Origin: Paludibacteraceae bacterium
GTDB lineage: Bacteria; Bacteroidota; Bacteroidia; Bacteroidales; Paludibacteraceae
Reading direction: 5' to 3'
DNA length: 37,500 bases
Assembly (NCBI GenBank): GCA_024399615.1
Contig: JAKSNQ010000014.1
Span: 1-37,500 of the forward strand
Part shown: piece by piece, positions 2,826-35,538 of the stretch
How the letters are laid out: each line of letters begins with the position of its first letter
Numbering within the stretch: position 1 is the stretch's first letter
The notes under the pieces: model-generated
Told to the model about the DNA's origin: nothing
The model's input: the letters and a program-made list of their open reading frames with translations, nothing else
Database searches by the model: none
Position numbers and translations under genes: made by a program

Positions 2826-3047
2826 ATGTATTGGACATTGGAATTGGCTTCAAAATTGGAGGACGCTCCTTGGCCAGCTACCAAGGATGAATTGCTAGAT
2901 TACGCGATGCGCGTTGGTGCTCCAATGGAGGTGGTAGAAAACCTTCAGGAATTGGAGGATGAAGAAGAAGAATATGAGACGATTGAGGATATCTGGCCCG
3001 ATTATCCTCAAAAAGAGGACTTTTTCTTCGATGAGGATGAGTATTAA
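2826..3047 (+). CDS. Small acidic DUF2795 protein
   Basis: 73-residue protein with the conserved Bacteroidetes N-terminus MYWTLELASKLEDAPWPATK and a very acidic C-terminal half containing DIWPDYPQKEDFFFDEDEY. The DUF2795 domain is found in small proteins of unknown function; I know of no assigned activity. It has no signal peptide or membrane segment, so it is cytoplasmic. It is the first gene after the promoter at 2717-2748, and its stop codon lies 11 bases inside the start of porP, so the two are probably translationally coupled. The high level of conservation I recall for this family argues that it is real despite its size. Confidence 0.88.
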   Translation: MYWTLELASKLEDAPWPATKDELLDYAMRVGAPMEVVENLQELEDEEEEYETIEDIWPDYPQKEDFFFDEDEY

Positions 3048-4050
3048 TGTGCTCGCAGTAGGAAAGAAAATAAATCACCGCGCAAACGCGCGATACATTG
3101 TTCTGGGGTTGCTGCTGTTGTTAGTGATGTCTGTGAAGGCTCAATTCGACCCTCAAATAGGACAATATATGTATTTGCCAGCCGCCTACAATCCGGCAAC
3201 AGTAGGTGAGGGTGACTTGCTAAAAGTGGCAGGTCTGCATCGCATGCAGTGGACGGGCATAGAGGGGGCGCCAATGAGTACGTATTTTACGTTTGGTTCG
3301 CCCTTTGAGATAGGCAAAACAAAGCATGGCGCCGGAGTGCGATTTTTGAATGACAGGTATGGTCTGTGGACAAATCAAACTTTCCACATCCAGTATGCAT
3401 ATCGTCAGAAGTTAGGCAAAGGTACGCTGAGTGTCGGCTTGGACTTGGGTTTTATCAATGTCTCGTTTCATGGCGATAGCGTGAATCTAAGTGATTTGGG
3501 AGAGTCAGAGTATCATACCCCCGGTGATGAGGCAATACCGATGGGCGAGGCCACAGGTATGAGTTTCGACATGGGCGCGGGCTTGTATTACCGCACATCT
3601 CGCTGGTATGTGGGCGCCAGTTACTCGCATATTCTCCAGCCGGCAGTAGAGCTGACCACCCAGACAGCCACGGTTCCGAATACGCTGCATGTACGAGGAA
3701 CGATGTACGTACATGGTGGGTATAAGATTCGGCTAAGAAACCGCGACTTCGTGTTGATACCTTCGGCGCTGCTACAAACCGATTTTCGGTCGTGGGACGT
3801 GGATGTAAGCCTGATGACCGAGTATTTGGAGAAATACCGTTGGGGACTGAGTTACAGGGTGTTAGGAGGCGTAGGAATACTACTCGGAGTGGAAATATTT
3901 AATGGATTTGACTTGGGTTACACCTATGAGCTGCCCACGAGTAAACTGATGGTTGAGAGTTTTGGTTCGCATGAGATTTACCTCAGTTATAGTCTGGATA
4001 TTCTCCGTCCTAAACGGACCAATCAGTATAAGAGTGTCAGATTCCTATAA
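3037..4050 (+). CDS. porP: PorP/SprF-family outer-membrane protein of type IX secretion
   Basis: 337-residue outer-membrane beta-barrel protein of the PorP/SprF family, a partner of the PorK/PorN ring and needed for type IX secretion in Porphyromonas and Flavobacterium. A signal peptide with a strong hydrophobic run (residues 20-33) and likely cleavage at VKA|QFDP is followed by the family opening PQIGQYMYLPAAYNPATVG. The remainder alternates short polar and aromatic strands typical of a barrel. The frame is open back to 2959 inside the DUF2795 gene; I prefer the ATG at 3037 (3031 is also possible), which overlaps the DUF2795 stop and gives a sensible signal peptide. It stands first in the order porP-K-L-M-N seen in Porphyromonas. 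The family has many paralogs, but this position supports the core copy. Confidence 0.88.
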   Translation: MSINVLAVGKKINHRANARYIVLGLLLLLVMSVKAQFDPQIGQYMYLPAAYNPATVGEGDLLKVAGLHRMQWTGIEGAPMSTYFTFGSPFEIGKTKHGAGVRFLNDRYGLWTNQTFHIQYAYRQKLGKGTLSVGLDLGFINVSFHGDSVNLSDLGESEYHTPGDEAIPMGEATGMSFDMGAGLYYRTSRWYVGASYSHILQPAVELTTQTATVPNTLHVRGTMYVHGGYKIRLRNRDFVLIPSALLQTDFRSWDVDVSLMTEYLEKYRWGLSYRVLGGVGILLGVEIFNGFDLGYTYELPTSKLMVESFGSHEIYLSYSLDILRPKRTNQYKSVRFL

Positions 4051-4070
4051 GTTTGCAGCGTAGGAACTTA

Positions 4071-4092
4071 CAAAAAAAACGGGCTCGGCCCG
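4071..4092 (+). other. Hairpin in the porP-porK gap
   Basis: CGGGC (4080-4084) and GCCCG (4088-4092) form a perfect 5-bp GC stem with a 3-base loop, preceded by a run of eight A at 4072-4079 and not followed by T. It is the only GC-rich element in a 75-base AT-rich gap. On the plus strand it cannot be a canonical terminator. It may shield mRNA ends or set porP/porK stoichiometry; on the minus strand it would look like a short terminator, but no minus-strand gene is present. Confidence 0.3.
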
Positions 4093-4125
4093 ACGCTATA
4101 GAATTAATAACAAAAAAAAGATAGT

Positions 4126-5511
4126 ATGAAATTGAAGAAAATTCTTTCAATTATGGCATTGGCAGTAGTGGTTGCAAGTTGCAACAAACCTGCCGGTGAA
4201 CTGGTAGGCGTTGGAGCAAAAGGTAACTTCAATGAGGCCAATCCCTATGGTATGGTTTATATCAAGGGCGGCAGCTTCATGATGGGTGAGAATGCTCAGA
4301 GCGCTCTCTTTGCTCAACAAGATCGCAATATGATGGTGACTGTTGACCCATTCTGGATGGACGAGACTGAGATTACGAACGATGAGTATAAGCAATTCGT
4401 TGCTTATTGTCGTGACTCTATGGCGCTTCGCTTGGCCGTTCTTAACGGTTTGGAAGAGGAGTATGCATTGGGCGTAGATGAAGATGATTTTGAACCAGAG
4501 ACTTGCCGTTTGAACTGGAAACAAGCCAAGAACCTTTGGACTCGTTATCGTCGTGAGTACGCCGGTCGTCTGAATGATGGTGAGACAGACCTGCTGGAGG
4601 CCATAGCACCCATGTTCTATAACGACATGAGATCTCTGAAGAATACTTATTTGCACTACTCGTACAACTGGTTGTGCTATGACGAGTTGGTTTCAGAGAA
4701 GAATAAGTACAATGTAAAGAAGGGTCGCTATACCGAAACCCCAATCATTCGTGCGGACTCGACCTGGGAAGACGAGCATCACGAGATTCATCGCGTGACA
4801 GTACACCGTCAGTTCCGTAATCCAAGTGATTTGGTTTCAAACAATATTATCGCTGTTTACCCAGATACTTTGGTGTGGGTTCGTGACTTTGCATACAGTT
4901 ACAATGATCCTCTCCTTCAGCACTATTTCTCACATCCCGGCTATGCCAACTACCCTGTAGTAGGTGTGACCTGGGAGCAGGCTTATGCTTTCTGCCACTG
5001 GCGTACGAAGACCTTGTATGTAGAAGGAAAGCAACTGACTCAGGCCTATCGTTTGCCTACAGAGGCAGAATGGGAGTATGCGGCTCGTGGTGGTCGTCGT
5101 ATGGCGGCTTATCCATGGGGTAGCAACTATGCCCGTGACTCAAAGGGTTGCTACATGGCCAACTACAAACCCTATCGTAGTTCTTACAACGAGGATACGG
5201 GTACCTATACTGTAGCCGTTGCCAGCTATCGTCCAAACGACTTTGGTTTGTATGACATGGCCGGTAATGTGGCAGAATGGACCTCATCTATGTACACCAA
5301 CAAGAAGGAGTTCACTACTGACCTGAATCCAACTTACGAGTACATGGCTCGTGAAGAGGATGCTCCTTCCTTGAAGCGCAAAGTGGTAAAGGGTGGCTCA
5401 TGGAAAGATATCTCAGCATACCTGCAATGTGGTGCTCGCACTTATGAGTATCAGGACGAGGGACACTCATACATCGGTTTCCGTTGTATCCGCTCGCACG
5501 TAGGCCAATAA
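4126..5511 (+). CDS. porK: Type IX secretion ring lipoprotein PorK/GldK
   Basis: 461-residue outer-membrane lipoprotein that forms, with PorN, the large periplasmic ring of the type IX secretion system. The lipobox VASC puts the lipidated cysteine at residue 19. The body has the formylglycine-generating-enzyme (SUMF1) fold: VYIKGGSFMMG near residue 44, then VDPFWMDETEITNDEYKQF, LPTEAEWEYAARGG and, near the end, VVKGGSWKD and GFRCIRS. The length fits GldK/PorK. It starts 75 bases after porP and is followed by porL. Enzymatic sulfatase-modifying activity is not expected, because the fold is used structurally in this system. Codon choice is of the highly expressed type. Confidence 0.95.
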   Translation: MKLKKILSIMALAVVVASCNKPAGELVGVGAKGNFNEANPYGMVYIKGGSFMMGENAQSALFAQQDRNMMVTVDPFWMDETEITNDEYKQFVAYCRDSMALRLAVLNGLEEEYALGVDEDDFEPETCRLNWKQAKNLWTRYRREYAGRLNDGETDLLEAIAPMFYNDMRSLKNTYLHYSYNWLCYDELVSEKNKYNVKKGRYTETPIIRADSTWEDEHHEIHRVTVHRQFRNPSDLVSNNIIAVYPDTLVWVRDFAYSYNDPLLQHYFSHPGYANYPVVGVTWEQAYAFCHWRTKTLYVEGKQLTQAYRLPTEAEWEYAARGGRRMAAYPWGSNYARDSKGCYMANYKPYRSSYNEDTGTYTVAVASYRPNDFGLYDMAGNVAEWTSSMYTNKKEFTTDLNPTYEYMAREEDAPSLKRKVVKGGSWKDISAYLQCGARTYEYQDEGHSYIGFRCIRSHVGQ

Positions 5512-5531
5512 AATACGTGAAATGCGTACAT

Positions 5532-5560
5532 GCATGTGTGCTTGCAACGTGCATGTGTGC
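5532..5560 (+). repeat. Short direct repeat upstream of porL
   Basis: GCATGTGTGC occurs at 5532-5541 and again at 5551-5560, 19 bases apart, in the 104-base porK-porL gap. The first copy follows ATGCGTACAT, so the area is rich in alternating purine and pyrimidine (CA/TG) steps. No promoter consensus is present. It could be two half-sites on one face of the helix or a decayed duplication. Confidence 0.4.
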
Positions 5561-5615
5561 GAACCTTAAAAAAGAATAATTAAGTCTGTAATATACGTAC
5601 AAAAAGTTTAGAATT

Positions 5616-6425
5616 ATGGCTAAGCAACAAGAACTAAAAGGATGGGATAAAGTAGTAGCATGGTATGCAGCTAACTCCTACACAATTGGAATGGTGTACA
5701 ACATCGGTGCATCAGTCGTTATTATCGGTGCATTGTTCAAGATTATGCACTGGCCCGGCGCAGGTTACGTGTTAACCGCAGGTATGTTCACCGAGGCATT
5801 CCTGTTCTTTATCGGTATTTTTGAGAAACCTCATGCAGTATACAACTGGGAGACCGTGTTCCCACAGTTGTTGGGCCACGAGGAGCATCCGTTGCAGGAA
5901 AACCTGACCTCTGCTCCCAAGCGCGACAACAATTTCAATGCCCTGTCAGAGGGTGACCTCCGTGCGCTTAAGGATGGTATTGGTAACCTTACCAATGCCG
6001 CAAACCAATTGGCCGACTTGAGCAAATTGGCAGAAGGAAGTGCACGTCTGGGTGAGAAACTGCAGGCTGCTGCTGATGTTACCGACAAATTTGCTTATGC
6101 TCAGAACACCGCATTGGCAGGTGTAGATCGTTTGGGTGAGAAGTTCGCAGCAACCGCTCGTGCAATCGATTCTCTCAAGGCAGACGCAGAGGGTGCCGCT
6201 AAGGAGCAAGCCGCAGCTCGTGCCAATTTGGCCTCTATCAATGCAGCATATGAACTCAACCTGCGCGCCGTTCAGGCCATCACCGCTGATGCTCAGAAAT
6301 TGGCAGATGCAAGTGCTAATGCCACCAAGGCAAGCGAGGCTTATGCAGCTGCTCAGAGCAAGTTGACTCAACAGGTGGCAGACCTCAACAAGGTATATGG
6401 TAACATGCTCAATGCATTGGCCTAA
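5616..6425 (+). CDS. porL: Type IX secretion motor stator protein PorL/GldL
   Basis: 269-residue inner-membrane protein which, with PorM, forms the proton-driven rotary motor of type IX secretion. Two N-terminal membrane segments (about residues 22-43 and 50-69) are joined by the very conserved KIMHWPGAG. Glu60 in MFTEAFLFF lies in the second segment at the place of the conserved intramembrane glutamate of GldL that is linked to proton flow. The long cytoplasmic part from about residue 85 is Ala-rich helix or coiled coil, with repeated LADLSKLA/LGEKLQAAA-like stretches. This tail fits the family. It lies between porK and porM in the same direction. Confidence 0.95.
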   Translation: MAKQQELKGWDKVVAWYAANSYTIGMVYNIGASVVIIGALFKIMHWPGAGYVLTAGMFTEAFLFFIGIFEKPHAVYNWETVFPQLLGHEEHPLQENLTSAPKRDNNFNALSEGDLRALKDGIGNLTNAANQLADLSKLAEGSARLGEKLQAAADVTDKFAYAQNTALAGVDRLGEKFAATARAIDSLKADAEGAAKEQAAARANLASINAAYELNLRAVQAITADAQKLADASANATKASEAYAAAQSKLTQQVADLNKVYGNMLNALA

Positions 6426-6451
6426 GCCCTCTTCTGTAGTCATTAACATTA

Positions 6452-6479
6452 TTTATTAGTAAGAATTTATTAGTAAGAA
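6452..6479 (+). repeat. Perfect 14-base tandem repeat abutting the porM start codon
   Basis: TTTATTAGTAAGAA occurs twice head to tail (6452-6465 and 6466-6479), and the second copy ends on the base before the porM ATG at 6480. The related TTTATTAG lies at 8132-8139, four bases before the porN ATG. Bacteroidetes start regions are A/T-rich and lack a strong Shine-Dalgarno, so the repeat lies in the part that controls ribosome binding. Confidence 0.8.
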
Positions 6480-8096
6480 ATGGGTGGAGCAAAAAACTGT
6501 CCGGAAACTCCGAGACAAAAAATGATAGGTATGATGTACCTGGTGTTGACCGCCATGTTGGCTCTGAATGTATCAGCCGACATTTTGAACGGTTTCTCCA
6601 AGTTGCGTCATAGTATGGAAGGTTCGATGGCTTCCACTGCAGAGCGTAATGAAGATGTATTTACCAACTTTGAAAACGCCTTCAGTAAAGATGGTGGTGC
6701 AGACAAGTATGGTCCATGGTACGACATTGCCAAGGCAGTTCGCGAGTCCAGCGACAGCTTCTTCAATTACATCGATAATTTCAAGATCGATATCATCAAT
6801 CAAATCGAGAACAAGCACTATGCATATGGCACACCAATGTCGGAGATTCAGGTTTCTAACAATGGTGATACCAATATTCCTCATGCTTACGCGTTGAACA
6901 CGTTGGATAAAACCACGGGCAAGATTAACGCAGACCAGTTCAAGGAGAATATGGAGGCATATTGCCACTATCTGACTCATGTGGAGTCAGCGTGCCTGCT
7001 TGAGAAGATAGAGAAGGACCCAAAGTTTGCGCATGAATGGAACATGAAAGCGCAGATGCTCAAGGCTCTTTTTAATACGGATGATACCTATAACGAGGAT
7101 GGTGCAGCAATCTCATGGCAACGCTCTACTTTTGATGAGATGCCAGCAGGTGCCGTATTGGCGTTGCTGACGAAGTATCAGAGTGATATCCGTATGGCAG
7201 AGAACGAGTTGATTAACTTCATGTTCAACGCTGCAGGTTCGTCAGATTTCGTGGTAAACTCTGTTACTCCAGTTATCCTGCCTACGTATGGCGAGTATGT
7301 GATGCAAGGTCAGCGCTATCGTGCACGCATTTTGTCCGCCATGGTTGATACCAACCAAGTGCCTCGCGTCTTCATCAATGGTCAAGAGTGGGAAGGTGGT
7401 GTGTATGACATCGCCGCCGGTGGTGTAGGTGCACATTCGTACAAAGGATATATGCAGATAGGTGACGATACGACTCATTATGAGTTTGAAGGTAAGTACA
7501 CCGTAGGTGCTCCTTCTGCAACAATCTCCAACACCGACCTCAACATCATGTACATCGGCTACGATAACAAGTTCTCTGTTTCTGTACCAGGTGTGGCAGA
7601 TAGCAAGGTTCGTGTATCATGCAACGGTGCATCGGTTAAGAAAGAAGGCGCTCTTTGGATCATTAAACCCAATGGTGGCACTTCTGCCCTTATCGAGGTA
7701 CAGGCCGAAGTGGATGGTCGCTGGGTATCGATGGGTAAACAAGAATACCGTATCAAGACGTTGCCTAAGCCAAATGCATATTTCATCGCGCCAGGCAAGG
7801 AGCCAATCAATGATGGCAAGATTGCGCGTGGTGATCTCCTCAATGCATCATCTCGTCTTGAGGCAAGTTATGGTCCTGATGGTCTGATTCAGGCTAAGTT
7901 TAACATTACCGGTTTCTCTGTGAAGTTGCCTTCAGGTAAGGAAATCAATATCAATGGAACTCGATTGGATAAGAAGACCCTTGATGCTCTTAAGGGTGTT
8001 AAGCAAGGTCAAATGGTAACTTTCCGTTACATTAAGGCCGTAGGTCCTGATGGAAAGACGGTTAGCTTGAGTCCAATCCCACTTGAGTTGCAATAA
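6480..8096 (+). CDS. porM: Type IX secretion motor protein PorM/GldM
   Basis: 538-residue inner-membrane protein with one N-terminal membrane segment (about residues 15-35, opening MGGAKNCPETPRQKMIGMMY) and a large periplasmic part that passes torque from PorL to the PorK/PorN ring. The conserved opening, including NCPETPRQKMI, and the central region with repeated beta domains (D1 to D4 in known GldM/PorM structures) fit the family; the C-terminus ends in LSPIPLELQ. It follows porL by 54 bases. The start codon is fixed by the conserved first residues and directly follows a 14-base tandem repeat. Confidence 0.95.
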   Translation: MGGAKNCPETPRQKMIGMMYLVLTAMLALNVSADILNGFSKLRHSMEGSMASTAERNEDVFTNFENAFSKDGGADKYGPWYDIAKAVRESSDSFFNYIDNFKIDIINQIENKHYAYGTPMSEIQVSNNGDTNIPHAYALNTLDKTTGKINADQFKENMEAYCHYLTHVESACLLEKIEKDPKFAHEWNMKAQMLKALFNTDDTYNEDGAAISWQRSTFDEMPAGAVLALLTKYQSDIRMAENELINFMFNAAGSSDFVVNSVTPVILPTYGEYVMQGQRYRARILSAMVDTNQVPRVFINGQEWEGGVYDIAAGGVGAHSYKGYMQIGDDTTHYEFEGKYTVGAPSATISNTDLNIMYIGYDNKFSVSVPGVADSKVRVSCNGASVKKEGALWIIKPNGGTSALIEVQAEVDGRWVSMGKQEYRIKTLPKPNAYFIAPGKEPINDGKIARGDLLNASSRLEASYGPDGLIQAKFNITGFSVKLPSGKEININGTRLDKKTLDALKGVKQGQMVTFRYIKAVGPDGKTVSLSPIPLELQ

Positions 8097-8142
8097 ATCT
8101 GTTCGCAGAAGTCTATCGTATATTAGGAAAATTTATTAGATA

Positions 8143-9111
8143 ATGAAGAAACTAAGTATTATCGCCATGTTGCTGCTGTGTGTGGCAGCAGTTCATGCCC
8201 AAAGACCTATTGTCTCTTTCTTCGATGCAAAGGGCGCAGTCAATTTCAAGACACAAGAGATTGACCACGAGACCGACACACTCAAACCAATCGTGCATAG
8301 AGTGGATGATGTGGTATGGTTTCGTACGGTATATCGTGTGATTGATATGCGTTACAAGCAGAACTACCAGTTGTATTTCCCCGTATCTCCATCCAACCCT
8401 ACGTATCGTAGTTTGTTCAAGGTGATGGTTGATGCGATAATCAATGGCATGCCAGTCTATGGTAAACCCGATTTTGATATCGATATCACTCCTCACTTTG
8501 AGGCAGAGCCTTTGGCAAAAGCAGAAGTAGCCAGCCTTCTCAATACCGATATGGATGGTGTAGGTGATGGTAATATTGCTACTTCAGAGTACATGATTAT
8601 CAATTACGACTCGGTTCGTGACAAGATGTCCTTCAATAACTATTCTTATGAGGGCTTTGTCAAGAACCAGCTTAAGTGGATGATTCAAGAAGTAGTCTTT
8701 TTCGACAAGCACTATTCACGTTTGTTCACCAAGATTGTGGGTATAGCTCCAATGTCGTCAGCACATGCCGGCAATGAAGACACCCCTCTCACCGAGGCAT
8801 TGTACCAGTCAATCTTGTTCTGGGTAGCATTTGATGACTTCCGTCCATATCTGCAGAAGCAAAACATCATCCCACAAGCTAACGACAACTCTCGTACCAC
8901 TTTTGACCAGTTCTTTGCAGAGCGTCGTTATAGTTCATATCTGATTGGTGATGCCAACATGTATTCTCGTATGTTCTCTGATTTCGCAGTCAGGGGTCGT
9001 GCCTCAGATGTGTTGACAGACCGTATCAAGATGGAAAAGGACATCAAGCGTGAGCAGGAGCGTATTCAAAACGAGTTGCTCAATTTTGAGCTTGATCTCT
9101 GGGAATACTAA
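8143..9111 (+). CDS. porN: Type IX secretion ring protein PorN/GldN
   Basis: 322-residue periplasmic protein that joins lipoprotein PorK in the outer-membrane-associated ring. A signal peptide is cleaved near residue 19 (VHA|QRPIVSFF). Family features include the region with DDVVWFRTVYRVIDMRYKQN, typical of GldN/PorN, and a C-terminal region with LIGDANMYSRMFSDF. It follows porM by 46 bases. It is the last gene of the por set, and a strong hairpin at 9128-9158 follows. The C-terminus is short and charged, without extension domains. Confidence 0.94.
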   Translation: MKKLSIIAMLLLCVAAVHAQRPIVSFFDAKGAVNFKTQEIDHETDTLKPIVHRVDDVVWFRTVYRVIDMRYKQNYQLYFPVSPSNPTYRSLFKVMVDAIINGMPVYGKPDFDIDITPHFEAEPLAKAEVASLLNTDMDGVGDGNIATSEYMIINYDSVRDKMSFNNYSYEGFVKNQLKWMIQEVVFFDKHYSRLFTKIVGIAPMSSAHAGNEDTPLTEALYQSILFWVAFDDFRPYLQKQNIIPQANDNSRTTFDQFFAERRYSSYLIGDANMYSRMFSDFAVRGRASDVLTDRIKMEKDIKREQERIQNELLNFELDLWEY

Positions 9112-31944: not shown

Positions 31945-32313
31945 TCACAGAAGGTCGTCAATCTCGGTCAATATGCCGTCTTCCCACAGGTGCTCGATGT
32001 CATAAAACGCGCGAGGTTCACGCTGGAAAACGTGTACGATAATCTGTCCGTAGTCCATCGCTACCCACTCTGCATTCTCCAGGCCATCTACGGCAAATGG
32101 CTTTACGCGAAGTTCCTTGCGAACGAAATCCTCAATTTCGTCTGCAATAGCGCATACCTGAGTTGAACTGTTACCCTCTGCTATTACGAAATAGGAGCAA
32201 GGAGCCTCTGGCAGGCGGGTCAAGTCAACCGTCACGATCTTGTGACCCTTGCGGTTTTGAATACCTTCTACAATTTTTTCTACAATCTGTTTGTTACTTA
32301 CTTCGTTATTCAT
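31945..32313 (-). CDS. rsfS: Ribosomal silencing factor RsfS
   Basis: 122-residue cytoplasmic protein that binds L14 of the 50S subunit and blocks subunit joining during starvation (formerly RsfA/YbeB/Iojap). Family motifs include DLTRLPEAPCSYFVIAEGNS, VDGLENAEWVAMDYGQIIVHVF and the end region REPRAFYDIEHLW. The length is normal. Its ATG is separated from the stop of the ABC transporter gene by one base, so it is probably translated from the same message; ftsH follows. This join of a housekeeping gene to the PqqD cassette is unusual. Confidence 0.95.
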   Translation of the reverse strand: MNNEVSNKQIVEKIVEGIQNRKGHKIVTVDLTRLPEAPCSYFVIAEGNSSTQVCAIADEIEDFVRKELRVKPFAVDGLENAEWVAMDYGQIIVHVFQREPRAFYDIEHLWEDGILTEIDDLL

Positions 32314-32314
32314 A

Positions 32315-33952
32315 TTATTCCATATTTAAACATTCTGACATATATTCTTTGACACGAGCATGGTGTGTCACCCATATGATGGTTTTATCTTTCACCTCGC
32401 GTCGCAGGTTCTCTAAGATACGTTGCTCCGTAGCCTCATCTACCGACGAACATGCTTCGTCCATTAGCAGTATGGCGCCTTTTTGCAGAAGTGCACGGGC
32501 GATGGCGATACGTTGCGCTTGACCTTCGCTTAGTCCGCTACCTTGTTCGCTACAGCGCAGATCCAAGCCTTCCTCGCGTTCGAAAACAAAATCAGCTGCA
32601 GCAAGTCTGAGTGCGTTTCGCATTTGTTCGTCAGTTGCTTCTATGTCGCCCAGCAGCAGGTTGTCGCGGATGGTGCCGCTCATCAAACTATTGCCTTGTG
32701 GAACGTATCGGAGGTTGCATCGTAGTGGAGCCGACATCTCCTTCTCTTTCGTTCCGTTGTACAATATCACGTTCCCTTCTTCGGGCCTGAGAAGGCCCAG
32801 CAGGATGCGCATGAGCGTTGATTTGCCGGAACCCGTTTTGCCTACTATGGCTGTGCTCACTCCGGGACGAAAATCGTAATTGAGTTGCTTGATGGTCGCA
32901 TCTGCATTACCCTCATAGGTGAATGTCACATCTTTCACGCGAATACCTAATGGCCCCTCCATCATCTCGGGAGCACCTTGTTCTTCTGCCTTTAGGTCGT
33001 CCATCTCTCTGAGTCGATCCACGGCTGTGAGTGAAGTAATCAATTTTGGCAGATAACCACTCATGTCCATGATGGGGTGCTGTACTTGATTGACCAATTG
33101 CAGACAGGCGGTCATCATACCGTATGTAACTGTGCCGTGCATGATTCCCAGTACGCTCCATGCAAAAGTGGTTATGTATCCGCCCATGAATCCCAAATGA
33201 ATAAACACATGAGACCAGTTGGAATAGGTTACTCTTCGCATGTTGGTATCAAACAACGTCTGCTGTTTCTCATTCATCTGTTGCACACTCTCCTCCTCGC
33301 GACCCATCGACAAGATGAGCATGCGTTTGAGCAGACTCTCCTGCATATGTTTTTGCAATTCGGAATCCTGTTGGCGGATTTCTTCACTTAGGCGTCGCAG
33401 GATTTTGAAATACACTTTGCTCACGATTAGGGCAACGGGCATAATGATGAGCAGTACCCACAGCAGGTTGCGTTGCATGCTGAATAAGATGAACGAGGCG
33501 GCTATCAGTTGGACGAATGACAAAAAGAGTAGGGGAATCTGTTCTGTTACTGTGCTGCTTACCGTACGAATATCTTCTTTCAGTCGGTTGACCGTGTCTG
33601 CCGAATGGAGCAACTCTTTGCCATGCCATTGGGAGCGGATTACTCTTTCAAACAACTCACTTCGGAGCCTGTTTGCTACCATAAAGCGGCTTTTTTCGCG
33701 TACTCGCGTGTTCCAAACCGACAAGCCGACTTGCAGTAGGATAATCGTCAACATCAGTCCCAAGTGCCACCATATATTGCCTTCTTGTACACCTGTGGCT
33801 ACGTCCACTACTGCTTTGCATATCCACACGAAACTGAGTGATATGGCTATGCGCAACATGCCTATCAGGCAGTTGCATAGTATGTGTAGTTTCAGGCCAT
33901 CCAAATGGCGCCATACCCATACCACATCCGTTTTCCACTCGCGTGTTTGCAT
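32315..33952 (-). CDS. ABC exporter, fused permease and ATPase
   Basis: 545-residue type I ABC exporter half-transporter. A six-segment membrane domain (about residues 15-295) precedes a nucleotide-binding domain with Walker A GKTGSGKS (371-378), a Q-loop area (LRYVPQGNSLMSGTIRDNLLL), signature LSEGQ, Walker B AILLMDEACSS and the switch His in WVTHH. There is no C39 leader-peptidase domain, so it does not itself cut a double-glycine leader. It would act as a homodimer. It is 3 bases after the S24/S26 gene and is the last of the PqqD-kinase-peptidase-exporter unit, so its cargo is probably the product of that unit. Confidence 0.92.
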   Translation of the reverse strand: MQTREWKTDVVWVWRHLDGLKLHILCNCLIGMLRIAISLSFVWICKAVVDVATGVQEGNIWWHLGLMLTIILLQVGLSVWNTRVREKSRFMVANRLRSELFERVIRSQWHGKELLHSADTVNRLKEDIRTVSSTVTEQIPLLFLSFVQLIAASFILFSMQRNLLWVLLIIMPVALIVSKVYFKILRRLSEEIRQQDSELQKHMQESLLKRMLILSMGREEESVQQMNEKQQTLFDTNMRRVTYSNWSHVFIHLGFMGGYITTFAWSVLGIMHGTVTYGMMTACLQLVNQVQHPIMDMSGYLPKLITSLTAVDRLREMDDLKAEEQGAPEMMEGPLGIRVKDVTFTYEGNADATIKQLNYDFRPGVSTAIVGKTGSGKSTLMRILLGLLRPEEGNVILYNGTKEKEMSAPLRCNLRYVPQGNSLMSGTIRDNLLLGDIEATDEQMRNALRLAAADFVFEREEGLDLRCSEQGSGLSEGQAQRIAIARALLQKGAILLMDEACSSVDEATEQRILENLRREVKDKTIIWVTHHARVKEYMSECLNME

Positions 33953-33955
33953 GTT

Positions 33956-34411
33956 TTAATGTTTTTTCAAAATTCTCCGTTTTAGCGCTCCGGGGACACA
34001 CTTGGCAAACAGCCAACTGGCCCTTATCGGGAAAAAGATATATTGCAGCAGGCCATAGATGCGCATCTTTGTGCTCGCCATGTCCAGCGTCTTCCCGTCT
34101 CGTTCCACCGCCGTCAACACACCTAAAATCTGGTCCTCGCGTACTCCGTACTCGGGGCGCCATTGGTTGTCGCCGCACATCACGTAGTCTTGCTTCCTTA
34201 CTCGCATGACACGATGCATAATATACTGCCCGTTGTCGCGCTTGAATAAGGGGATGTCCAACCAATGCAGACGCTCATTTGCTTCTTTTTTGCGAATGAT
34301 CAGCAGGTCACGTCTCTGCCTGAGTAAAGGCATCATGCTGGTCCCTACGTTGGTATAGACCAGTACTCCATTGTTGTTCAGTATGTCTTCAAAACTACTT
34401 ACTTCTGCCAT
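33956..34411 (-). CDS. S24/S26-family peptidase, S26B signal-peptidase-like
   Basis: 151-residue protein with the signal-peptidase fold motifs: GTSMMP with the nucleophile Ser25, IMHRV with His66 and CGDN with Asp81. A His where LepB has Lys marks the S26B branch (SipW and ER/archaeal type), so this should be a Ser/His enzyme. No N-terminal membrane anchor is found, but a hydrophobic stretch near residues 118-135 (YGLLQYIFFPI) could bind the membrane. The in-frame TTG at 34429 is rejected in favour of the ATG at 34411. It lies 7 bases after the HPr-kinase-like gene. It may cut a leader peptide or a specific membrane protein; the substrate is unknown. Confidence 0.8.
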   Translation of the reverse strand: MAEVSSFEDILNNNGVLVYTNVGTSMMPLLRQRRDLLIIRKKEANERLHWLDIPLFKRDNGQYIMHRVMRVRKQDYVMCGDNQWRPEYGVREDQILGVLTAVERDGKTLDMASTKMRIYGLLQYIFFPIRASWLFAKCVPGALKRRILKKH

Positions 34412-34418
34412 TATCGTA

Positions 34419-35279
34419 TTATATATCAAATCCCATGCCGTTTGCGCTCACGACTGCCGCTTCGTCATCCATATTGCAGCCAAGAATGTAAAAACTGACA
34501 TTTTGTCCTATTAAATCTATCAGTTCCAACGTCTTGAGCATCATCATTGGGTCGTCTGGTCGATAGATTTGGTTGAGCAGAGTCTGAACAGCCTCACGAG
34601 GGGGAATTTGTCGAATCGTGTTCTCGTTGGCTCGGGTCAGGATACAAATGGCTTTTAGTCGTGCTCGCATATTGGTGCTCAGGTGATGTTTGCCGTCCCA
34701 CGGGGTGCCATACGCCCATACGCCTGATTCTCCAACTTGTAGCAGGGGTTTGTCGTCGTTTACTATGATAGCTCGTTGTCCGAACAACTTGCGCCACAAT
34801 CGTACATGGGTAGATTTGCCTGTCCCGCTTTTGGCAGTAAAGATAACCGCTTCGTACTCATTCTGTTGAGTGTTCTCGGATGTCTCTGTCGCTTCGCTCG
34901 TGGGACGAATGGCGAGGCATGAGCCATGCATCAGCAGCCGACCGCGATTCACGGCAGCTGTGGCAATCTGACGATATACTGCTAATGTCTCCAGATACGA
35001 GTCGTCAAAAGTATATGGTGGCAGACCTTCTTCTTTGCGGGTCTCTTCTGATTCTTTTCGTTCGCGTTCGATGTCCTTCTCGCACGTGCGTACAAAAAAA
35101 TCAGGCTGAATCTCCGCTTGACTCTCCCCTTCTTGCCCACACGTCTTGGAGGAAAGTTCCACAATGTAATCTGCGCACATTGTGTGTACTTCCTCGTACA
35201 GGCTCTCCACCTGTACCACCATATCTGCCAATCGGTATATTCCTGTCATTCGACTTGGGTGTTGGTCCTGTTTAGTCAA
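34419..35279 (-). CDS. HPr-kinase/phosphorylase-like protein
   Basis: 286-residue protein related to the C-terminal domain of HPr kinase. It has MHGSCLA (His118-Gly119-Ser120), a P-loop with KSGTGKST (residues 150-157; the first Gly of the P-loop is Ala149) and NDDKP with Asp175-Asp176, all in the order of HprK. It lacks the N-terminal HprK domain. Between the HGS strand and the P-loop there is a polar insertion of about 20 residues (residues 124-143; Thr/Glu/Ser-rich). Relatives occur in lasso-peptide and related clusters, where a few are peptide kinases. It overlaps the PqqD-like gene by 8 bases. It is probably a kinase of the cluster's own substrate, not of HPr. Confidence 0.8.
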   Translation of the reverse strand: MTKQDQHPSRMTGIYRLADMVVQVESLYEEVHTMCADYIVELSSKTCGQEGESQAEIQPDFFVRTCEKDIERERKESEETRKEEGLPPYTFDDSYLETLAVYRQIATAAVNRGRLLMHGSCLAIRPTSEATETSENTQQNEYEAVIFTAKSGTGKSTHVRLWRKLFGQRAIIVNDDKPLLQVGESGVWAYGTPWDGKHHLSTNMRARLKAICILTRANENTIRQIPPREAVQTLLNQIYRPDDPMMMLKTLELIDLIGQNVSFYILGCNMDDEAAVVSANGMGFDI

Positions 35280-35538
35280 TAATGAGTCCTTCTGCTCGCA
35301 ACTTCTCCACCAATGCCTTTACCTCCGAGCGCAATTGCTCCTCGCTTACCTCATATTCTGTCAGCATCTTCTTGACAATGGCATCTTCGTCCATGCCTTG
35401 TTGAAGGCAGGTGAAAATGTCCTTACCGGTCTCGTTCATGCTGATGACGTTGGGGTAGTATTTGGCGCCTTCGCCTATTGCCAAAGCGGCAATACTGCCG
35501 CAGACATCACGTACTGCAAATTCGTATTTTAGTTTCAT
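35272..35538 (-). CDS. PqqD-family protein
   Basis: 88-residue small cytoplasmic protein of the PqqD family (PF05402), whose winged-helix-like fold in many ribosomal-peptide pathways is the leader-recognition element (RRE). The fold is suggested by a beta-rich N-terminal half (LKYEFAVRDVCGSIAALAIG, with NVISMNETGKDIFTCL) and a helical C-terminal half (EEQLRSEVKALVEKLRAEGLI). It is the first gene of the unit; its promoter is at 35568-35599. It overlaps the HPr-kinase-like gene. No precursor peptide gene lies beside it, so what it recognises is unknown. Confidence 0.85.
   Translation of the reverse strand: MKLKYEFAVRDVCGSIAALAIGEGAKYYPNVISMNETGKDIFTCLQQGMDEDAIVKKMLTEYEVSEEQLRSEVKALVEKLRAEGLIID

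Follow-up and report, generated by a model that had tools for sequence, protein, structure and literature searches.

Which process would bring together a PqqD-family protein, an HPr-kinase-like (HprK-like) protein, an S26-type Ser/His peptidase and an ATP-binding cassette (ABC) exporter is the question raised by a four-gene cassette on contig JAKSNQ010000014.1 of a Paludibacteraceae bacterium (assembly GCA_024399615.1). The window analysed here is the entire contig, 37,500 nucleotides (nt) from a draft genome of 1.78 Mb that is 76% complete. We consider it likely that the cassette provides the common machinery for a peptide export system of the ribosomally synthesised and post-translationally modified peptide (RiPP) type, with its precursors encoded in trans and the S26 protein as probable leader protease. 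The four-gene set described in an earlier note on this DNA is confirmed, with all open reading frames (ORFs) on the minus strand: pqqD at 35272..35538, the hprK-like gene at 34419..35279, the S26-like gene at 33956..34411 and the exporter gene at 32315..33952. The tight packing claimed in that note holds for the gaps of 7 nt between the kinase and peptidase genes and 3 nt between the peptidase and exporter genes. The 8-nt overlap of pqqD with hprK does not stand as well, because it depends on the TTG start as called; the starts of related kinases align near an ATG at 35249, which makes a 22-nt gap the likelier arrangement.

The PqqD-family protein (88 amino acids, aa; PF05402, E 2.8e-15) is a predicted discrete RiPP recognition element (RRE). 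Among solved structures the lasso-peptide B1 proteins TbiB1 (5v1u/5v1v, E 2.6e-9) and TfuB1 (6jx3, E 8.6e-8) are its nearest relatives by profile, so that it corresponds to the discrete RRE (B1) of lasso pathways. Its genome holds a single PqqD match and a single HprK-like match. Neither the HprK-like nor the S26-like protein has a Pfam match at E<=1, and no NCBIfam model fits the former; His108, the P-loop S-G-x-G-K-S-T-H and the motif N-D-D-K-P are invariant in 26 of 26 aligned rows and point to a probable kinase. The S26-like protein matches the signal peptidase I model TIGR02228 with an E-value of 2.2e-5 and 24.4 bits, under the cut-off of 51.85, and in structure profiles it finds signal peptidase 4nv4 (E 0.001) and SEC11C (E 0.0011). 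All 29 aligned rows share its catalytic-type residues Ser25, His66 and Asp81, which lie in the S26 Ser/His motif set, with Ser in G-x-S-M-x-P, His in an H-R motif and Asp in G-D. The label S26B that the earlier note gave it is presumably a name for such Ser/His peptidases. The exporter combines a transmembrane domain (PF00664, 1.9e-26) with an ATPase (PF00005, 4.7e-26), and a Pfam search finds no C39 peptidase domain in it.

Two fused relatives tie the peptidase to both export and modification. In locus L061 (1716-3956; G048; G and L are our handles for genomes and loci) an S26-type peptidase forms the N-terminal part of an ABC exporter chain of 746 aa directly behind PqqD and HprK, and in locus L113 (8963-10516) an S26 peptidase is fused to a PF14907 nucleotidyltransferase. 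The former may be seen as the S26 counterpart of a peptidase-containing ABC transporter (PCAT), in which leader cleavage is likewise possibly coupled to export; it differs from the known PCATs in having an S26 domain instead of C39, and the leader end of the peptides described below lacks a double-glycine motif. The position of the peptidase at the exporter N terminus and the absence of any strongly hydrophobic stretch from 27 of 28 S26 rows suggest that leader cleavage takes place on the cytoplasmic side.

A scan of named genomes with the window's HprK-like protein, of which the best 80 of at least 592 confirmed relatives were analysed, shows that these genes belong together. Within four genes and on the same strand as HprK, PqqD is found in 69 of the 80 loci, S26 in 63, both in 59 and an ABC exporter in at least 32, a lower bound as two exporters were mislabelled as kinase via their P-loop. 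This grouping is beyond chance. Six neighbouring genes that were tested are PF14907 nucleotidyltransferases. By record label, the 80 closest listed relatives are 69 Bacillota, 6 Bacteroidota, 3 Actinomycetota and 2 Synergistota, mainly gut and rumen Bacillota, and the "similar sets in Bacteroidetes" that the earlier note mentions were therefore too narrow a description. Its term "incomplete" is misleading, since the PqqD-HprK-S26 trio without an adjacent lasso B2 or cyclase recurs across phyla. Unlinked cassette genes, which the note had named as the finding that would overturn it, are not what is seen for the window type, with both partners present in 59 of 80 loci; among the window's own relatives this case applies in part, as described below. 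A kinase tree joins the window to G010 and locus L068 (100/99) amid sequences that are mostly from Bacillota, at a wide distance from the four included kinases of a second type (type II) from its own genus; it does not settle the deeper branch order of the Bacteroidota.

If the cassette serves a peptide, a precursor should recur with it. The earlier note found none, which is right for the window, where a peptide profile search found no precursor; candidate precursors do exist elsewhere. Near the trio in the named genomes an ORF of about 30-60 aa recurs, for example MEKYETPVMEVIEFETEDVITTSDDDDITMPEI, with a conserved leader (Y-x-x-P-x-M/L ... D-I/V-I-T-T-S) and a variable core. A hidden Markov model of this family gave 47 matches at E<0.01 among the 17,780 small ORFs of the loci collected by then and none among 17,780 shuffled ones; at E<0.05, at least one peptide is present in 38 of the 80 loci. 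Of these 47 peptides, 40 lie within 2 kb of HprK, where 19.6 would be expected and the maximum in 1000 random placements was 29, and 44 share the strand of the kinase. Five peptides compared with Pfam and NCBIfam matched no family. The features of a RiPP precursor, namely a conserved leader, a variable core and tracking of the recognition protein, are all found here, which supports the idea of a small protein encoded elsewhere that is modified and exported, and the search for a conserved small ORF that the earlier note had proposed has yielded a family that tracks the cassette. Trio and peptide occur together in the named records of Coprococcus catus (L104) and Kandleria vitulina (L078), and in Faecalibacterium prausnitzii (L085) the kinase is accompanied by two peptides. 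In the Bacteroidota, Candidatus Physcocola equi (L069) has two peptides on the opposite strand about 1.7-1.8 kb from the cassette, and locus L099 has one immediately before pqqD.

The chemistry of this module seems to differ between loci. Six of six tested peptide neighbours of 438-456 aa, all from outside the Bacteroidota (L093, L096, L103, L110, L136, L147), are radical SAM/SPASM-like, with matches far under the named cut-offs, and the peptides of these loci carry Cys. This is shared with radical SAM/SPASM RiPP systems (TIGR04463, TIGR04334 kin), a SPASM-type enzyme standing beside the same peptide family in some of the 80 loci. The window cassette differs in that none is seen beside it; the three genomes with a window-type cassette encode 2, 1 and 1 SPASM proteins, none of them on the cassette contig. 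Similar genes, judged by size and place only, stand beside leader peptides in L086, L116 and L121 (438-459 aa for the whole set). One member of the peptide family, encoded in Kandleria vitulina (L078:4492-4845), reaches 117 aa and has a long core rich in Asn, Thr and Tyr.

The leader of these peptides resembles that of the phosphorylated lasso precursor BsfA. In an ungapped register of 83 peptides, from which genus peptides with E>=1e-6 or from loci after L237 were dropped, Tyr(-17) is found in 77, Pro(-14) in 43, Ile/Val(-2) in 78 and Ser(+3) in 64, all of them upper bounds because the register finder favoured the counted residues. Lasso leaders are reported to need Tyr(-17), Pro(-14) and Leu(-12) for B1, and in the BsfA system of Bradymonas the leader carries Ile(-2), the kinase phosphorylates Ser3 and B1 speeds phosphorylation (PMC10368454). 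Compared with the usual lasso precursor pattern of YxxPxL and Thr(-2), the peptides have Ile/Val at -2, as BsfA does. The likeness extends to the machinery: phosphorylated lasso pathways (BsfA/B1/B2/K/N, paeninodin, pseudomycoidin) share with the cassette a discrete PqqD-type B1, an HPr-kinase-like K and an ABC exporter, with its relatives a nucleotidyltransferase N, and with its peptides a YxxPxL-like leader, Ile/Val(-2) and Ser at +3. The cassette differs in having an S26 Ser/His peptidase, in that B2 was not found and no cyclase is seen beside it, and in that the precursors of the window genus are encoded in trans, mostly behind proteins with a conserved tail.

It could be argued from this likeness that the cassette is a decayed lasso-peptide cluster which has kept B1, kinase and exporter and has lost B2 and the cyclase. 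The nearest relatives of its PqqD are lasso B1 proteins, YxxPxL/M is found in many leaders, and HPr-kinase homologues and nucleotidyltransferases have been described in lasso clusters (PMC8498205, PMC7533575, PMC10368454). No Asn-synthetase-like cyclase was noticed around the cassette, the whole genome not having been searched for one. Against decay, the combination that includes S26 turns up in 59 of the 80 loci, the S26 active-site residues are invariant throughout, the B2 leader protease PF13471 has no match at E<=0.01 in any of the three cassette genomes, which are drafts of 68-86% completeness, and the peptides are many, dispersed and diversified. We hold decay to be quite unlikely.

In the window's genus the peptides are dispersed and do not adjoin the cassette. 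Near-full-length kinase matches of at least 61% identity are present in only 3 of 178 genus genomes (the own genome, G010 and G152), with matches at E<=1e-20 in 6. A genus profile, which contains peptides of these three genomes and is partly circular for them, finds at E<=1e-5 18 peptides in G152, 13 in G010 and 3 in the own genome, with one each in only two of the other 175 (G065 and G076), the G076 match belonging to a second subtype (Y-N-Q-P-E-V ... S-I-I-C-A-S-G). A non-circular count with a 12-row profile free of any row from the three cassette genomes gave, at E<=0.05, 13 in G152 and 4 in G010, as well as 1-3 in 48 of the 175 others and more than 3 in none. Some weaker matches (E 1e-3 to 0.05) on the N termini of long frames, for example in L192, L193 and L200, were judged to be chance and set aside.

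The second leader subtype has a kinase of its own. Type II peptides are found at E<=1e-3 in 108 of the 178 genus genomes and the second kinase type in 128, some matches being partial; in the three window-type genomes the search finds only the window-type gene, and these were dropped from the comparison. In the remaining 175, both peptide and kinase are present in 96, the peptide only in 10, the kinase only in 32 and neither in 37 (Fisher p 1.6e-10, only indicative because the genomes are incomplete and related). Leader subtype largely follows cassette subtype within the genus. G065 has the type II kinase, no window-type cassette and yet two window-type peptides, on a contig of 5.4 kb that resembles locus L219 of G152 by eye, which may reflect misbinning or transfer. 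Proteins of about 360-400 aa without an evident signal peptide begin with the second leader type in part of the genus (for example L239:1592-2701, MKKIYTQPRIEIVATEPQQIISTSGG...), and in L243 a free peptide stands beside a 305-aa lipoprotein-like gene.

The dispersed peptides mostly share one kind of neighbour. Of 42 genus peptides (E<1e-4, those with E>=1e-4 being dropped), two are at contig ends, and 34 of the 40 evaluable ones follow, at a distance of 6 to 142 nt, a gene on the same strand with a conserved tail at the end of its product (K-F-x-E-N-G-x-L-Y-I-x-x-x-G-x-x-Y-D-x-x-G-R-x-V-K; 32 by fixed pattern, L223 and L236 by eye). The products of these upstream genes range from 114 (partial) to 1,347 aa; such a gene is lacking for L222, L227, one of the two peptides in L230, L231, the second in L237, and L243. 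All three peptides of the own genome (L206, L207 and L208, contigs C71, C49 and C26) follow a tail-bearing gene and have acidic C-terminal tails, with net charges of -10, -11 and -7 after TS. The 80 named-genome loci, which were chosen around the kinase, hold another conserved C-terminal domain in 23 of 1,043 predicted proteins, 19 of them followed directly by a peptide and a 20th (L119) by a weak one. Seen from the peptides, 19 of 40 with an upstream gene adjoin such a protein and 8 of 40 follow a cassette gene. The link to apparently secreted proteins is positional, and from it the exported peptide would probably act with them. The tail was tried as a marker of the system and rejected, as it is present in 178 of 178 genus genomes.

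This arrangement also gives rise to the view that peptides and cassette are functionally unrelated, their co-distribution reflecting shared ancestry and the peptides belonging to the secreted proteins only. The genus peptides do adjoin tail-bearing proteins rather than the cassette, the genomes are related, and those with type II peptides and no detected HprK fit such a view. It is at odds with the named-genome loci, which hold the same leader family near the trio, with the subtype match within one genus and with the resemblance of the leader to the motif recognised by lasso B1, and we regard it as rather improbable.

What the sequences hold, namely the gene set, its linkage, the peptide family, the conserved leader, the co-distribution and the position, would fit the following mechanism for the proposed export system. 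PqqD would bind the leader K-Y-x-x-P/A-x-L-x-I/V-V-...-D-I/V-I-T-T-S of the small peptides, and the HprK-like kinase would phosphorylate the peptide, most likely on the conserved Ser (or a Thr) around core position +3 in the T-T-S stretch. The S26 peptidase would remove the leader near I/V-T-T-S, the ABC exporter would move the variable core out of the cell, and the exported peptide would probably act with the large, apparently secreted tail-bearing protein encoded just upstream. A bolder version, which we put forward tentatively and would not expect to hold in full, is that each member of a set of large secreted proteins that share a conserved C-terminal domain is co-encoded with its own peptide, and that a genome-wide PqqD-kinase-S26-ABC machine phosphorylates, trims and exports this peptide to join the protein's C-terminal region, covalently or not, outside the cell. 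This would apply to both Bacteroidota and Bacillota, with leader and cassette subtypes being swapped together upon replacement of one machine by another.

Several findings weigh against the proposed system. Peptide binding, phosphorylation, the cut site, export and the partnership with a secreted protein are steps that we infer; the kinase assignment depends on motifs, and its structure-profile matches to HPr kinase are weak (E 0.75-1; 1ko7 E 0.75). The leader likeness is lessened by the upper-bound nature of the register counts, by Pro(-14) being present in only 43 of 83 peptides and by the three peptides of the own genome, in which Ser stands one residue earlier (Tyr+18). In the BsfA study (PMC10368454), phosphorylation still took place when all three motif positions were changed to Ala, and cleavage fell only in part. 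No peptide is found in 42 of the 80 loci, the own genome has none with the non-circular profile at E 0.05 (one at E 0.248), and in 10 genus genomes type II peptides occur although no HprK was detected. The type II peptide profile also matches G152 (2) and G010 (1), so the match of leader and cassette subtypes is not clean, and the genomes are mostly drafts and phylogenetically non-independent. The tail is generic, the own genome having 26 copies of it but only 3 peptides, and "secreted" was judged by eye. Finally, among 30 loci fetched around HprK-like matches in relatives of the window (27 of the same genus, 3 of the same order), 16 have HprK with neither PqqD nor S26 adjacent; 11 have PqqD and S26 as separate neighbours, one PqqD only, one PqqD with an S26-ABC fusion, and in one no HprK was called. 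This implies that the type II system is not always a single operon.

Should the proposal hold, it would describe a new way for gut and rumen bacteria to place peptides outside the cell, would assign their orphan PqqD, HprK-like, S26 and PF14907 genes a substrate and a function, and would add an S26 peptidase to the RiPP leader proteases. One machine would then serve up to 18 precursors scattered over a single draft genome (G152, by the partly circular profile). That peptide genes are paired with large, apparently secreted proteins points to a role at the cell surface more than to a classical antibiotic. The set was not found described in the open-access literature, and as most subscription papers lay outside this coverage, this is no proof of absence; in the main text of a 2023 review of RiPP leader proteases, a term search found neither S26 nor signal peptidase.

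The HPr-rel-A system also combines a PqqD-family protein with an HprK-related protein, which we take to be the kinase partner of TIGR04353 (PqqD_rel_X). The window's PqqD differs from it, reaching 24.0 bits against a TIGR04353 cut-off of 35, and the kinase, as said, fits no NCBIfam model.

Directly behind the exporter, at a distance of 1 nt, lies rsfS (31945..32313, minus strand; PF02410, 1.9e-29). The order pqqD-hprK-S26-ABC-rsfS-ftsH is found in all three genus members with a window-type cassette, L068 being taken for contig C104 of G152 because length and match position agree. This order would fit a regulatory cassette that acts on a membrane or house-keeping protein through phosphorylation and cleavage, for example via the adjacent rsfS-ftsH. 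Except for L068, none of the 80 loci has rsfS and then ftsH within five genes of HprK, and the HprK-like genes of other relatives are in quite different places, which makes regulation of this kind very improbable. On the plus strand at 3037..9111 the window also holds porP-gldK-gldL-gldM-gldN, type IX secretion genes that serve as context only, all five above the NCBIfam cut-offs. Five tail proteins showed no named type IX sorting domain in Pfam and NCBIfam (E<=0.1), though the window encodes PorP-GldKLMN.

An anti-phage defence role was considered and set aside, as PqqD, kinase and peptidase have no PADLOC match, and so was a plasmid or phage origin, with no match of the cassette DNA in plasmids and none of PqqD in phages. 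In many relatives (L033, L050, L051, L052 and others) a lone HprK-like gene stands behind addAB-like nuclease genes, a label taken from reading frames and one PDDEXK match. The HprK of the Bacillota locus L075 has three partial relatives in plasmid records and two in phage records.

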